From positions 1 through 51,470 of the forward strand of contig JAAXHO010000105.1 in assembly GCA_012270795.1 (NCBI GenBank): a stretch of DNA of 51,470 nucleotides. The letters run 5' to 3'. Under the pieces are notes generated by a model. It saw only the letters and a program-made list of their open reading frames with translations, ran no database searches and was not told the origin of the DNA. Below, piece after piece: positions 2,993 to 11,760 of the stretch. Numbering within the stretch: the stretch's first letter is position 1; every line of letters begins with the position of its first letter. This stretch comes from Candidatus Poribacteria bacterium (GTDB lineage Bacteria > Poribacteria > WGA-4E > WGA-3G). Both the position numbers and the translations under genes were made by a program.

Positions 2993-3367
2993 TATGGTAG
3001 ATTATGGAATTAATTACACACTTTCACAGGTAGGAGCGACCTCCCGGTCGCGACTAGTGGATTATCTACTCTTACATTGTAGGTCGGGTAGAGCGAAGCA
3101 AAACCCGACAGGATGCCACCTATTTGAATTAATGTCGGGTTTCGCTTCGCTCTACCCGACCTACAAAATAAGTCTGGACAGGACACTAGGGAATCAACGG
3201 TATGAATCATGACGAAGCATGTAGAATACCACACGGGGAATGCTCTATAGCATTCATACCGTTGATTTCTTGATTTGGCATATTCTACCAAGCGCATTCG
3301 CCGGGTCGCGACCGGCGGTCGCTCCTACAGAAGAGGTGTATAATTATTTTCATATTTCACCATAGTT
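2993..3367. repeat. Palindromic MITE-like repeat (family 1) with a second repeat inserted
   Basis: The outer arms (2993-3054 and 3304-3367) match the intact element at 11645-11760 in reverse orientation: TATGGT termini, TAATTACACAC and GTAGGAGCGACC. The middle is split by about 249 bases (3055-3303) bounded by the 9-base direct repeat GGTCGCGAC. The insert holds a strong hairpin (about 3080-3166, GTAGGTCGGGTAGAGCG with its complement) and a second inverted pair around AATCAACGGTATGAAT (about 3193-3280). No coding sequence is credible here. This fills the gap between pgeF and the next gene. Confidence 0.8.
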
Positions 3368-4573: not shown

Positions 4574-5389
4574 GTGGTAAAAGACATGAGATTGGGTGTA
4601 ATTGGTGTGGGAAAAATGGGAGGGATTATTGTTCGGAGTATTGCTGACCGACTATTTCCGGCAGAACAGATATGGATTAGTGATATTGACGAGGACCTTG
4701 TAACACAACTCTGCAGTGAGAAGGGTGTAAATTCTTCCAATGATATATCGGATTTAGTCAAACAGACAGATGTGATTTTTTGTGCAGTTCCCCCAGTTGC
4801 CATTCCGCATATACTTCCCCAAGTTGCTCGTGAGTTGACAACACCCCAATGGATAATCAGTATCGCAGCAGGTGTTAGAACTGAATCACTTGAAACCTTC
4901 TTTGAGATTCCACCGCCGGTGGTGCGCGTGATGCCCAATTTAGCTGCTTCGGTACAAGCAGCAATTTCTGTATTAACACCTGGCAGTGCTGCAAATGAGG
5001 AACATCTCAACATAGCACAGCAGATATTTAATACGTGCGGTACGACATTAATTATGGATGAACGGCACTTAAATGCTGTTACAGCGGTCAGTGGTAGCGG
5101 ACCTGCTTATGTAGCACTTTTCATAGAAGCATTAGCAGATGCAGGTGTGTATGCTGGTTTAGCACGAAAGGACGCACAGACATTAGCCACACATACAGTT
5201 TTGGGAGCAGCGACGTTGTTAGCACAATCTGAAGAACATCCTTCAGTGCTTAAAAACCGTGTTACAACTCCGGGTGGAACAACTGCTGCTGGTCTTCACG
5301 CATTAGAACAAGGTGGCATTCGTGCTACACTAACCGAGGCGATAATTGCTGTAACCGAACGTGCAAAGTTACTTGACACCGAAAAATAG
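4574..5389 (+). CDS. proC: Pyrroline-5-carboxylate reductase
   Basis: Catalyses the last step of proline synthesis, NAD(P)H-dependent reduction of pyrroline-5-carboxylate. The N-terminus has the Rossmann motif GVIGVGKMG; FCAVPP and the P5CR C-terminal dimerisation domain follow (AVSGSGPAYV, TTPGGTTAAGLHALE). Length 271 matches the family. The GTG at 4574 is preferred because AGGAGA (4562-4567) is ideally spaced; an internal ATG at 4586 is the alternative. It sits between yggS and yggT. Confidence 0.95.
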   Translation: MVKDMRLGVIGVGKMGGIIVRSIADRLFPAEQIWISDIDEDLVTQLCSEKGVNSSNDISDLVKQTDVIFCAVPPVAIPHILPQVARELTTPQWIISIAAGVRTESLETFFEIPPPVVRVMPNLAASVQAAISVLTPGSAANEEHLNIAQQIFNTCGTTLIMDERHLNAVTAVSGSGPAYVALFIEALADAGVYAGLARKDAQTLATHTVLGAATLLAQSEEHPSVLKNRVTTPGGTTAAGLHALEQGGIRATLTEAIIAVTERAKLLDTEK

Positions 5390-5407: not shown

Positions 5408-5674
5408 ATGCCGACTATTGCACATATACTCAGTAGAGCAATTGATATTTACATGCTGATTGTTCTTGTAAATGTTCTACTTTCATGGGTGGTGTTTGGT
5501 ATTCAGAATACAACCGTTCGACAAATCTATTGGATTACAGGACAAGTAGTGGATCCCGTACTGCAACCAATACGTAACATCCTTAATCCTGTTAGTCGAA
5601 ATATCGGGATTGACTTTTCACCGATTGTGTTATTGTTTTTACTTCACGTCCTAAACAGGATGCTAATTTCATAG
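5408..5674 (+). CDS. yggT: YggT-family membrane protein
   Basis: An 88-residue protein with two hydrophobic segments and the YggT signature: LLSWV near the first helix, DPVLQPIRNILNP between the helices and DFSPIVLLFLL in the second. The family is linked to osmotic tolerance, cell division and membrane organisation, but its biochemical role is unresolved. An AGGAAAGGGAAAAG stretch precedes the ATG. Its place between proC and the ileS-like gene is the usual one. Confidence 0.9.
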   Translation: MPTIAHILSRAIDIYMLIVLVNVLLSWVVFGIQNTTVRQIYWITGQVVDPVLQPIRNILNPVSRNIGIDFSPIVLLFLLHVLNRMLIS

Positions 5675-5742: not shown

Positions 5743-8340
5743 ATGGCAGTTAGTATTATGAAACAGACAGAATCTTCAACCAATAAGGAAACTAATAAAC
5801 GTTCAGGAATAAAGCCAAATAGTAAAAAGGGTAAAACAAATCCTTCAGACAACATTATACTCCCAAAAATGGAAGCAGATATAATGAATTTGTGGGCATC
5901 CAGGAATGTTTTTAAAGTCGCTGAAAAAACTAAAGAGTTACCTACTTATGTTATTAGAGAGATGCCGACCCCAGTGGATTCACTAAATGGCAATACTCTT
6001 AAGAGTAAAATATCGCAAGACATTTTTTTAAAGTACGAACTTATTCATGGGAACACAGTCGCTTATGCTCCGTTATGGGAGACCTTTCCTTTTAGTATTG
6101 AGGTAGATATTCTAAAAAAAGATATCCATACATCTTCGCGTAACATCGTAAGTTTTAGGAAACAGTGTCGTCTGTCGTATAGTAAACAGTTGAAAGCACA
6201 AATGCATCGCTTACAGAAGCTTGGTATTTTTGCAGATTGGACAACCGGTGAAAAAACATTAGAAGCACGTCATGAAACCAAACTCTTTAGTTTTTTTGAT
6301 AGATTGCGAGACTCGAAATACTTACGGGATGAACTGAAGCTCAGTCATTGGTGTCCACAATGTATATCCCCTTTAGAAGCTGGCAAAACGGCAAAACCCG
6401 TAACTACGCACGCACAATATACTTATGTAAAATTCCCACTTAATAACGGTTTTGAAGAATTCGGTGTAGAAGTCTATTTTGCAATGGGGCTCCCATCTTC
6501 TCAATTATGGGAAATCGCTGGCACAATAGCAATTGGAATTTATGAAAATACCCAGTTCTATCTTACAGAATGTGAAGGTCAATATCTTATAATTGCGGAA
6601 CCACAATTAAAGAAGTTTTTTGGTCAAAATGTAAAAGAGGATAAAAAGGCACAGGCAAGCAGCAAGCACTTATTAAAATTTAAAGCCTTGCTTTTAAAAG
6701 ACTGCACGCTTTCACATCCTCTCTATTCATTAACCGATCTGCGATTTTTTATTATACCTGAGGATATAATTAACAACATTTCCAATTCCGCTGAACGCAA
6801 GGAATTAATGGATGGGATTGTTCCCCTAAACCCAGCACATCATTCCTTGAGTTATAATATCTGTAACACACTCCCTGAAATCAGTGAATCCATTCACACA
6901 AGGTTTGAGTCCTCGTCTTCTTCCACACCGATATTTGATGAAGCAGGTCGTTTCACTGAAGAAGCAGATACATTATGTGGATTAAAATTGAACAATGCAA
7001 TGCAGTATATTACCGACGAATTGGAGGCACGTGAATGTTTGATTAAGATGAAAAAACAAGAGATTGAGCAGCTTCAATGCCAACATTGCAATGGTTTTAC
7101 AGTCTCTCGTCCTTATCGGCATTGGGTTTTTACTGCAACCTCTACAGATATTGGAGAAGAGGTTACAACTTCACCCGAGTATTGGGAACACTACAGTGAG
7201 GACATACGCGATGAAATTAAAGACCAAGTATTGAATATTTCTGATATGCAGATTTCTTCTCAGCGACAGTGGGGTATTCCACTCCCTATTCTCCGCTGTG
7301 ATAATTGTAACCATCTCATCACGGATAAGAAGATCCTCCGAGCTGTGAGAGGTTCCATCCGTAGAGGATCCGAACATTGGTTTAGACTGAGTGTAGAAGA
7401 ACTACTACCAACAGATACGCAGTGTGATAACTGTCATTCAAAAGATTTCAGAAAAGAATCCACTTATATTGAGAGCCATTTCACAAACTTATTACAAACA
7501 CTTGATATCTCAGACTTTAAAAAGTCTTCACTTGACACGACTACGAATGTTGTTTTTGCGCCACGAACTGCTTTTTTGAAATGGTTAGGGGAATTAAGTG
7601 TGTTATCCGCGTCACTTCAGCTGAGTCGGCCATCCAGAGAAAGTCATCCTTTTAAGCATCTGAAACTTTATGCTTTTGATGATAACACCTGGGCACCAAA
7701 AATTGAAGACAGATACTTTCAAGAATATCCAGCAGACGTTATCAGACTATTCTCTATTTCAACAGAAATCAGTAGAGTACCTGCTGATGTTGACGAGGCA
7801 CAAAAACTTAAAGAGATAATAGATCAAACAAATAAGGAATACAATCAACTAAGAATCATTTTAGATCGGGTCGTTGCATACAAGAACAAACTAAATAAGA
7901 ATTCAGATTCCAATAACGATCTAATTTTATCAAATATATCAGATGAAAATGCTGCAGACACCTTACCTGAGCATGACATACATATAATCTCCATGACAAA
8001 TCAACTGCTTGGTGATATTCGGGAAGTTTACAAAAAAAGAGATTTCTTTGAGATGTGGCGAAAGATTTTTGACTTCTGTGAAAAAGATCTCCTATTGTAT
8101 ATTGACTTATACATAGAAAATGGTTCGAATTCTTCAAAGAGTGTTCTTACATCTGTATTCAAAGTAATTCTCCAGAACTTATCCCCCATACTTCCTTTTT
8201 TAGCAGAAGAGATGTACGCTAAAGGGTTCTCTGATTCAACTAGTATTTTTGAAGAAAAAATTGTTAGTTTACCACAAATCTTTGCTGATGAAGAATCAAT
8301 AGAAAAGTGGGAACTGCTTAAGAAGACAAAAAACTCGTAA
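5743..8340 (+). CDS. Degenerate isoleucyl-tRNA synthetase-like protein (HIGH and KMSKS lost)
   Basis: Uninterrupted 865-codon frame at the ileS position of the yggT-ileS-lspA order. IleRS-like landmarks: ILPKMEADIMNLWASRNVF near residues 39-57; a degraded editing-domain start (LPSSQLW, where WTTTPWTLP is expected); FTEEAD; SSQRQWGIPLP at residues 505-515 (SRQRxWGxPIP in true enzymes); and zinc-knuckle CxxC pairs before and after it. The HIGH motif should lie near residues 78-87, where MPTPVDSLNGNTL is read instead. KMSKS should lie near residues 644-660, where TWAPKIEDRYFQEYPADVIRLF is read. The DVWFDSG and GSDQHRGWF equivalents are also gone. Catalysis by the normal mechanism is unlikely. 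The long open frame implies selection, perhaps as a pseudo-enzyme, with a functional ileS elsewhere. Confidence 0.75.
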   Translation: MAVSIMKQTESSTNKETNKRSGIKPNSKKGKTNPSDNIILPKMEADIMNLWASRNVFKVAEKTKELPTYVIREMPTPVDSLNGNTLKSKISQDIFLKYELIHGNTVAYAPLWETFPFSIEVDILKKDIHTSSRNIVSFRKQCRLSYSKQLKAQMHRLQKLGIFADWTTGEKTLEARHETKLFSFFDRLRDSKYLRDELKLSHWCPQCISPLEAGKTAKPVTTHAQYTYVKFPLNNGFEEFGVEVYFAMGLPSSQLWEIAGTIAIGIYENTQFYLTECEGQYLIIAEPQLKKFFGQNVKEDKKAQASSKHLLKFKALLLKDCTLSHPLYSLTDLRFFIIPEDIINNISNSAERKELMDGIVPLNPAHHSLSYNICNTLPEISESIHTRFESSSSSTPIFDEAGRFTEEADTLCGLKLNNAMQYITDELEARECLIKMKKQEIEQLQCQHCNGFTVSRPYRHWVFTATSTDIGEEVTTSPEYWEHYSEDIRDEIKDQVLNISDMQISSQRQWGIPLPILRCDNCNHLITDKKILRAVRGSIRRGSEHWFRLSVEELLPTDTQCDNCHSKDFRKESTYIESHFTNLLQTLDISDFKKSSLDTTTNVVFAPRTAFLKWLGELSVLSASLQLSRPSRESHPFKHLKLYAFDDNTWAPKIEDRYFQEYPADVIRLFSISTEISRVPADVDEAQKLKEIIDQTNKEYNQLRIILDRVVAYKNKLNKNSDSNNDLILSNISDENAADTLPEHDIHIISMTNQLLGDIREVYKKRDFFEMWRKIFDFCEKDLLLYIDLYIENGSNSSKSVLTSVFKVILQNLSPILPFLAEEMYAKGFSDSTSIFEEKIVSLPQIFADEESIEKWELLKKTKNS

Positions 8341-8374: not shown

Positions 8375-8869
8375 TTGACTAATTTAACTCAATACTTTAA
8401 AAAGGCTTTACCACTGTTTGCTATAGCTGTACCAATGTTGTTGCTTGATATCCTAACTAAATGGATTGTACAAGTGAACATACAAGAGGGTGACAGCATA
8501 TCAGTCATTACAGGTTTTTTTTACCTGAGTCATCATAGAAACTCAGGTGCAGCATTCGGCATTCTGGCTAATCAACGGATATTGCTTGTATTAGTAACTA
8601 TCGCTGCTCTTATCTTTATTTTTGTGTATTCATACCGTTATAGAAACAGTAGATGGGTACAAACAGCTCTCGGTTTTGTTCTCGGAGGCGCAGTGGGTAA
8701 CTTTATTGATAGACTATTTTTGGGAGAGGTCGTTGACTTTCTTCAGTTTGGGATTGAAAGTAAGAATCTGTTTTGGCCTACTTTTAACGTAGCCGATGTC
8801 AGCGTTTGCATAGGTGCAGGAATGCTGATCGTTTACCTTTTCCAATTTCAGAAAAGGAATGCAAATTGA
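8375..8869 (+). CDS. lspA: Lipoprotein signal peptidase (signal peptidase II)
   Basis: Inner-membrane aspartic protease that cleaves lipoprotein signal peptides before the lipidated cysteine. The 164-residue protein has four hydrophobic segments, the conserved NSGAAFGIL loop, and the catalytic aspartates in GNFIDR (D112) and FNVADVSV (D141). The TTG start has AAGGA very close and GGATAAGGA further upstream, so the exact start is uncertain. It follows the ileS-like gene by 34 bases, the standard order. Lipoproteins encoded in this window (14605 and 46529 starts) are probable substrates. Confidence 0.94.
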   Translation: MTNLTQYFKKALPLFAIAVPMLLLDILTKWIVQVNIQEGDSISVITGFFYLSHHRNSGAAFGILANQRILLVLVTIAALIFIFVYSYRYRNSRWVQTALGFVLGGAVGNFIDRLFLGEVVDFLQFGIESKNLFWPTFNVADVSVCIGAGMLIVYLFQFQKRNAN

Positions 8870-8934: not shown

Positions 8935-9053
8935 ACTATGATAGATTATACAATTAATTCTACATTTTGAGTTGTAGGAGCGACCTTTGGTCGCGACCAA
9001 AGGTCGCTCCTACAGAAGATATGTATAATTATTTCAATAATTATACATAATAT
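8935..9053. repeat. Palindromic MITE-like repeat, family 1
   Basis: Intact copy of the family also at 2993 and 11645. The core is a perfect hairpin, GTAGGAGCGACCTTTGGTCG followed by its complement (about 8974-9013), with weaker outer arms (TATGATAGATTATACAATTA, and AATTATTTCAATAATTATAC). It lies between lspA and the next gene. Its transcript would fold into a stable stem that might attenuate or protect mRNA; that role is inference. Confidence 0.75.
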
Positions 9054-9065
9054 TAAGGGAAAAAG

Positions 9066-9623
9066 ATGTTATTACTTAGAAATTACTTGTTTATTCTGGC
9101 AATTCTTACTACTTTTATACTCACACCAACTATACAAGCACAAGAAACTCATAAGCATGAGGAAGAATACCATGAAAGTGCCTTGAGACGGTTTGAAATT
9201 GTTACGTTAAGTTCACTTCCATTTACAGCTATTCATAGTTATTTCGGGGTTCGGGGTGTAAGAATGATTCAGGACAGTAAAATTGCACCGGTTTTGTCAC
9301 CGCAAAATTATCGTGTAATGGGTATTTGTGCTGTATCGTTGTCCCTGTTTATCGGTATTTGGGACTGGTATCATACGCGTGATGTTGACAGGTCTGCCCC
9401 GAGTATTCCTGAGTACAAACCCCCTACACCTCCTTCTGAGGATGAACTACCACCAGATGGTACAATTACAGGAATCGGGGGAAATGGACCAAATGCGAAT
9501 GTCCACGCAAAATCGATATTCTATAGACGATCCTCACAACCACTGAGATTCACACAACTAAATGAGTGGACGACTGAAACTGTTGATAGTATTTATATTC
9601 CGTTCTTTCAAATACGTTTCTAA
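9066..9623 (+). CDS. Exported protein of unknown function
   Basis: A 185-residue protein with a probable signal peptide (residues 1-25; a hydrophobic stretch ending TIQAQ). A second hydrophobic stretch near residues 82-99 (YRVMGICAVSLSLFIGIWDW) may be a membrane helix. A proline-rich segment follows (PPTPPSEDELPPDG). I do not recognise a family. The start follows an AAGGGAAAAAG ribosome-binding region just downstream of the repeat. The position between lspA and fmt suggests it belongs to the same transcript, but gives no clear function. Confidence 0.7.
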   Translation: MLLLRNYLFILAILTTFILTPTIQAQETHKHEEEYHESALRRFEIVTLSSLPFTAIHSYFGVRGVRMIQDSKIAPVLSPQNYRVMGICAVSLSLFIGIWDWYHTRDVDRSAPSIPEYKPPTPPSEDELPPDGTITGIGGNGPNANVHAKSIFYRRSSQPLRFTQLNEWTTETVDSIYIPFFQIRF

Positions 9624-11644: not shown

Positions 11645-11760
11645 TATGGTGAAATATGGAAAGAATTATACACATCTTCTGTAGGAGCGACCTCTGGTCG
11701 CGACCGGGAGGTCGCTCCTACCTGCGAAAGTGTGTAATTAATTCCATAATCTACCATAGT
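11645..11760. repeat. Palindromic MITE-like repeat, family 1 (intact)
   Basis: Best preserved copy. The terminal arms TATGGTGAAATATGG and the complement of TATGGTAGATTATGG enclose a central hairpin GTAGGAGCGACC...GGTCGCTCCTAC (about 11682-11721). The copy at 2993 is the reverse-oriented form of this sequence with an insertion. It lies between the PASTA gene and rpe. Non-autonomous: no transposase in the window. Confidence 0.8.

Follow-up and report, generated by a model that had tools for sequence, protein, structure and literature searches.

To our knowledge, the pseudoenzymes described as descendants of aminoacyl-tRNA synthetases are mostly eukaryotic, belong to class II, or have partial activity left. 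HisZ, which forms a complex with HisG, and GCN2 are synthetase-like proteins that do not aminoacylate and have been put to binding or regulatory use. Similarly, SLIMP is a SerRS-like protein without aminoacylation activity that complexes with mitochondrial SerRS, and the class I LeuRS-I of Sulfolobaceae does not aminoacylate but still makes leucyl-adenylate and binds tRNA-Leu (PMC9437257). Among homologues of isoleucyl-tRNA synthetase (IleRS), SbzA from a Streptomyces antibiotic cluster moves isoleucine from Ile-tRNA onto altemicidin, retaining slightly modified HIGH and KMSKS motifs and weak charging activity (PMC6331615). In type-2 IleRS (IleRS2), a swap of HIGH for GXHH leads to mupirocin hyper-resistance with activity retained, and an IleRS1 with a non-canonical motif was reported as not found in nature (Brkic et al. 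2023, PMC10485003). A search of the open-access literature returned no description that treats Poribacteria together with isoleucyl-tRNA synthetase.

Here, we analysed a 51,470-nucleotide stretch of Candidatus Poribacteria DNA (hereafter, the window), which carries beside lspA a gene for an IleRS relative that we call pseudo-IleRS. Comparison of the sequences makes it very likely that this gene is the native ileS1, which would have lost its ATP-, amino-acid- and editing-site signatures and been kept under selection as a pseudoenzyme, with a type-2 IleRS as the housekeeping enzyme.

Results

An IleRS relative without catalytic or editing signatures

The pseudo-IleRS gene is a stop-free 865-aa open reading frame at positions 5743–8340 of the window, flanked by the conserved neighbours yggT (5408–5674, PF02325) and lspA (8375–8869, PF01252; placed downstream as in ordinary ileS-lspA loci), with proC (4574–5389), likewise conserved, further upstream; all four genes lie on the forward strand. 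Translation probably begins at Met6 (base 5758), giving a protein of 860 aa, because the aligned relatives share a conserved MKK/MKQ start at this point. The first 40 residues (5743–5862) make up a basic, variable tail (pI 10.1, pLDDT <40) that is probably disordered. No Rfam elements were found in the window, and the protein matched none of the PADLOC anti-phage defence models at E-values up to 1.

In Pfam searches, the protein matched PF00133 (tRNA-synt_1, E 9.5e-23) and PF08264 (Anticodon_1, E 1.4e-13), and against NCBIfam TIGR00392 (ileS) it scored 177.6 bits, far under the equivalog cut-off of 621.4 bits. By sequence, the closest solved structures are those of IleRS1 from Priestia megaterium and Staphylococcus aureus. 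In a 76-row alignment, on which the motif calls depend, NGNT stands at the HxGH position, ESHFTNL at that of DVWFDSG, APRTAFLKWL at that of GSDQHRGWF and SSQLWE at that of the editing-site TTTPWT, and the KMSKS of IleRS1 aligns with a deletion of about 10 residues. SSQRQWGIPLP is kept, together with four zinc CxxC pairs at residues 204, 446, 519 and 561. The first-pass annotation, made from the letters of the window, had described just such a protein, an IleRS relative with these landmarks and without HIGH, KMSKS, DVWFDSG or GSDQHRGWF; the alignment shows all four motifs replaced or deleted in the protein, and the profile search that the annotation had proposed gave the scores stated above.

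All homologues for which scoring was possible lack the same catalytic motifs. The H, G and H residues of HxGH are kept in 0 of 19, and the swapped G/AXHH motif was not found in these 19 homologues either, the motif being lost, not exchanged; the KMSKS loop is deleted or replaced in every scorable homologue. The C-terminal Zn/tRNA-binding domain of IleRS1 is absent in families f1, f3 and f4, the window protein included. Misalignment as the source of the missing motifs was rejected, as the whole family agrees and alignments with solved IleRS1 put the motifs in the replaced stretches. We take Pro46, Trp518 and Trp558 of T. thermophilus IleRS to line the isoleucine side chain; at the aligned positions the proline and the RGWF tryptophan are each kept in 19/19 homologues and the DVWF tryptophan in 0/19, and we rejected a retained isoleucine pocket on the loss of the latter, which leaves the pocket not intact; the literature search returned nothing on these three residues.

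Along the chain, residues 73–100 (5959–6042) replace the GPPYANG..HIGH region with a new consensus, EMPTPV..L..DTL..KI.QDIFLK. The CP1 and zinc region (residues 201–576; 6343–7470) contains the CxxC pairs and degraded forms of the editing motifs TTTPWT and GTGxVHxAPGHG. In the former GSDQHRGWF segment (residues 605–619; 7555–7599), W614 is the sole survivor (19/19), and the former KMSKS loop (residues 642–656; 7666–7710) is deleted and replaced. A helical, anticodon-binding-type domain (PF08264, residues 747–861; 7981–8325), acidic in charge, is followed by the end of the chain. Scored on positions conserved in at least 80% of 17 intact IleRS1 and compared with the family majority, retention was 34% in the first Rossmann half, 37–45% in CP1 and the zinc region, 18% in the second Rossmann half, 5% around KMSKS, 25–35% in the helical domain and 0% for the C-terminal domain.

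We modelled the window protein with AlphaFold2, using as input its own sequence, a homologue from another Candidatus Poribacteria MAG (L047) and 19 IleRS1 encoded on IMG/VR contigs. The resulting model (pLDDT 75, pTM 0.74) aligned with solved IleRS1 structures over 724–747 residues at Z 26–27 and Foldseek also ranked IleRS1 first, although, the input alignment being mostly true IleRS, the model tests fit to the fold and not that the fold holds in every detail. Pseudo-IleRS is thus predicted to retain the overall IleRS fold.

Descent from the native ileS1

In a maximum-likelihood tree, the 17 tested homologues all grouped together (support 100) and fell with IleRS1 (98), not with IleRS2 or ValRS; the tree search was quick and some branches are long, so that the inner order is unreliable. 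The gene order proC(-yggT)-[gene]-lspA is kept wherever the contig extends far enough. In another phylum, an ordinary IleRS1 (L068) likewise adjoins lspA on its upstream side, and a DivIVA-like frame, recognised by eye, precedes the pseudo-IleRS gene in genome G080; both tie the site to the standard ileS context. Descent from IleRS1 is judged on tree and synteny; the missing C-terminal domain reads as a later loss. The most distant member seen, a fragment at a contig end in family f9 (G082) that falls within the clade, already lacks DVWFDSG and KMSKS, and loss of catalysis would therefore be older than the f9 split; on these sequences, the signatures went before most of the diversification of the phylum. 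The same fragment keeps the C-terminal CxxC...CxxC domain with its two CxxC pairs, which the derived families do not, indicating that this domain was lost later.

Downstream of lspA, positions 8974–9013 hold a 40-bp perfect palindrome (GTAGGAGCGACCTTTGGTCGC and its complement), which lies before the next gene and is a REP/MITE-like element. Its 21-mer recurs in the window at 3308–3328 and 11681–11701, and the genome contains 94 exact copies (51 forward, 43 reverse), often as facing pairs, compared with 0 for a reversed-pattern control. In nearly every one of these loci, lspA and fmt are separated by a gene for a protein without a Pfam match (185 aa in the window, 9066–9623), which carries the conserved stretch ESALRRFEIVTLSSLPFTAIHS.

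Distribution across the phylum

We surveyed 85 poribacterial genomes, mostly metagenome bins, with a profile built on 18 homologues. With fragments at contig ends counted alongside full genes, the gene is present in about 78 of the 85: 58/59 in f1, 3/3 in f3, 8/9 in f4, 4/6 in f5, 2/2 in f6 and one each in f7, f8 and f9, with 0/2 in f2 and 0/1 in f10. A quirk of a single genome or assembly was rejected on this count and on the L047 protein, which is 92% identical to the window protein. Three genomes that are 92–96% complete (G058, G060 and G061) have proC-yggT-lspA intact with no gene between yggT and lspA, a clean loss that shows pseudo-IleRS to be dispensable in some lineages. G010, G072, G081 and G083 gave no match either; these are less complete genomes or ones in which no lspA was found.

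Outside the phylum, in about 300 genomes, no match rose above the score range of ordinary IleRS1, a screen judged by score, in which the best matches reached up to 471 bits and into whose range the divergent f5–f7 members also fall; these best matches fit proteins of ordinary IleRS1 size. A scan of viral contigs with the family profile returned no relatives. Large IMG/VR viral contigs, many of 100–580 kb, do encode near full-length IleRS1 (L146–L169), with HIGH present and KMSKS usual, some carrying a variant KMSKS.

Selection and conservation within the family

Pairwise dN/dS ranged from 0.10 to 0.39 over 12 informative homologue pairs (one further pair showed almost no change), well under 1 in each, where random decay would bring it near 1. 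Between the window protein and L047, dN/dS was 0.16, with a minimum of 0.06 over residues 501–580, and the housekeeping IleRS2 pair of the same two genomes gave 0.08. Constraint on pseudo-IleRS, as read from these substitution rates, is weaker than on the working enzyme and far from neutral. About 75 genomes, from several families, have an intact frame of 740–1011 aa, and on these two lines of evidence we rejected a pseudogene. One frameshift was seen, near residue 100 of L064 in the 64%-complete bin G080, and may be a sequencing error or the onset of decay. Substitutions have accumulated faster in pseudo-IleRS than in the neighbouring proC and lspA.

The best-conserved stretches within the family include residues 81–120, 161–180, 221–240, 501–580 and 801–820. 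Among the peaks are the former HIGH helix (81–100) and the QRQWG/zinc module (501–580); the helix has thus been fixed to its new consensus, not randomised. The best-conserved block (residues 501–580; 7243–7482) comprises S(S/A)QRQWG(I/M)PLPIL, the second zinc module, R536/R541 and F547; R536, R541 and F547, together with E238 and G241, are family-specific.

A separate housekeeping IleRS

The genome of the window contains one strong separate ileS (G000:C227, 960 bits), a type-2 enzyme with GVHH instead of HIGH and an intact KMSKS. The first-pass annotation had proposed that a native IleRS, at its original locus, was kept as a pseudo-enzyme after a second ileS took over, and each part of this agrees with what we found: the tree and gene order place the protein with IleRS1, catalytic signatures are gone from intact frames under constraint, and the second ileS is present in the same genome. 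Housekeeping IleRS2 of f1, f3, f5 and f6 mostly have GVHH and KMSKS; f2, f4 and f7 use a different type-2 IleRS.

In f2 and f4, the three copies read (L103, L104 and L108, from G063, G058 and G060) have NNPMGVHHAWG for HIGH, with (A/E)MHKS for KMSKS where read (AMHKS in f4), making this a second IleRS2 type within one phylum. In the f9 IleRS2 (L046, G082), KMSKS is intact and the HIGH position reads PTIAH (GMPTIAHTITR), which fits neither HxGH nor GxHH. G015 has two IleRS2 copies above the cut-off (C84 and C74). No true ileS was found in G068 (95% complete) or G070 (91% complete), where pseudo-IleRS is present; we take these absences to be MAG gaps.

Discussion

Taken as a whole, the observations are probably best explained by IleRS pseudoenzymes that form one family across the phylum Poribacteria and would work by binding and not by catalysis, and pseudo-IleRS very probably has a new, non-catalytic job. 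The clean loss in three near-complete genomes and the evolution faster than that of proC and lspA count against this explanation.

How such a protein would act can be sketched tentatively. The native bacterial-type ileS1 lost its ATP-, amino-acid- and editing-site signatures, and a separate type-2 IleRS took over charging. The remodelled adenylate cleft, with EMPTPV...KI.QDIFLK near S(S/A)QRQWG-PLP, the second zinc module and R536/R541, would then hold a ligand, most likely RNA such as the tRNA acceptor end, and the protein might act in translation as a regulator or chaperone associated with tRNA. RNA is favoured as the ligand because the kept architecture is built around RNA and basic residues have been newly fixed in the zinc module. 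The first-pass annotation had offered binding of tRNA-Ile or a regulatory role as possibilities. A protein that has lost its C-terminal tRNA-binding domain is a poor candidate for faithful recognition of the tRNA-Ile anticodon, and tRNA binding is hence a conceivable mechanism that falls short of probable; we also count against RNA binding the low retention and acidic charge of the helical domain. A broader version seems somewhat unlikely to us: that the native synthetase was turned, phylum-wide, into a non-catalytic sensor or regulator whose remodelled cleft reads the state of tRNA or of a metabolite, kept since before most of the diversification, after a mupirocin-hyper-resistant type-2 IleRS had taken over.

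The main rival to tRNA binding is a role as partner or scaffold, in which pseudo-IleRS would form a complex with a synthetase, either the housekeeping IleRS2 or a different one, and bind no tRNA or other ligand of its own. The fold predicted to persist without catalytic sites and the blocks of conservation within the CP core and the zinc modules would suit such a role, which we rate as unlikely; the gene persists beside one IleRS2 type in f1 and beside the other in f4 and f7, which makes an obligate IleRS2 partner less likely. By analogy with SbzA, an IleRS homologue with non-translational chemistry, pseudo-IleRS could instead be a new enzyme, an aminoacyl-transferase or another activity acting on charged tRNA (PMC6331615), and the former active-site region is indeed fixed to a new consensus. 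This alternative appears improbable, however: SbzA retains the slightly changed HIGH and KMSKS that are both gone here, the locus is a housekeeping one without biosynthetic neighbours, and no new invariant set of residues has a catalytic look.

Far less probable is a functionless remnant in slow decay, kept by chance. The rapid evolution, the clean losses in G058, G060 and G061 and the frameshift in G080 would fit it, but the low dN/dS in every informative pair, the intact frames in several families and the position-specific conservation speak against it. The surroundings of HIGH and KMSKS in IleRS form the adenylate and mupirocin site. As a decoy for mupirocin-like inhibitors, which the first-pass annotation had suggested and the GVHH-type takeover might recall as a trace of past exposure, the protein would be expected to preserve this pocket, and we consider the idea highly implausible because the pocket is eroded more than any other part (0/19 and 5%), the DVWFDSG tryptophan and GSDQ are lost too, and the hyper-resistant GVHH kind of IleRS already does the housekeeping (PMC10485003).

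As a binding pseudoenzyme, pseudo-IleRS would be a candidate new translation-linked regulator, and the family constitutes a natural replicated experiment, gene-loss lineages included, on what selection retains in a synthetase after catalysis. For annotation, pipelines may label the gene as ileS and so count an active enzyme.

Compared with bacterial IleRS1 (TIGR00392; P. megaterium 8c9e, S. aureus 1qu3), pseudo-IleRS shares the modelled fold over nearly the whole chain (Z 26–27), the zinc CxxC pairs (as in L068), the QRxWG motif and the ileS-lspA gene order; it differs in having no HIGH, KMSKS, DVWFDSG or GSDQ, degraded editing motifs and no C-terminal zinc domain. A changed HIGH motif is common to it and the G/AXHH IleRS2, enzymes of the kind that do the housekeeping here, but those are active, whereas pseudo-IleRS is an IleRS1 descendant with no such motif at all (PMC10485003). 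Like LeuRS-I, it is a second class I synthetase copy beside a working enzyme, but it lacks the activation signatures, and LeuRS-I belongs to another family and another domain of life (PMC9437257). SbzA is likewise an IleRS homologue with a role outside translation, beside a housekeeping IleRS, but sits in an antibiotic cluster, whereas pseudo-IleRS has neither HIGH nor KMSKS and occupies the ileS-lspA locus (PMC6331615). SLIMP (PMC9437257), HisZ and GCN2 are also synthetase-like proteins that bind or regulate without aminoacylation, but these are class II and come from other lineages. None of LeuRS-I, SLIMP and SbzA matches the pseudo-IleRS family, in which a class I synthetase, still close to full length but with the signatures of both synthesis and editing gone, has been kept at its original locus, beside its replacement, through most of a phylum.
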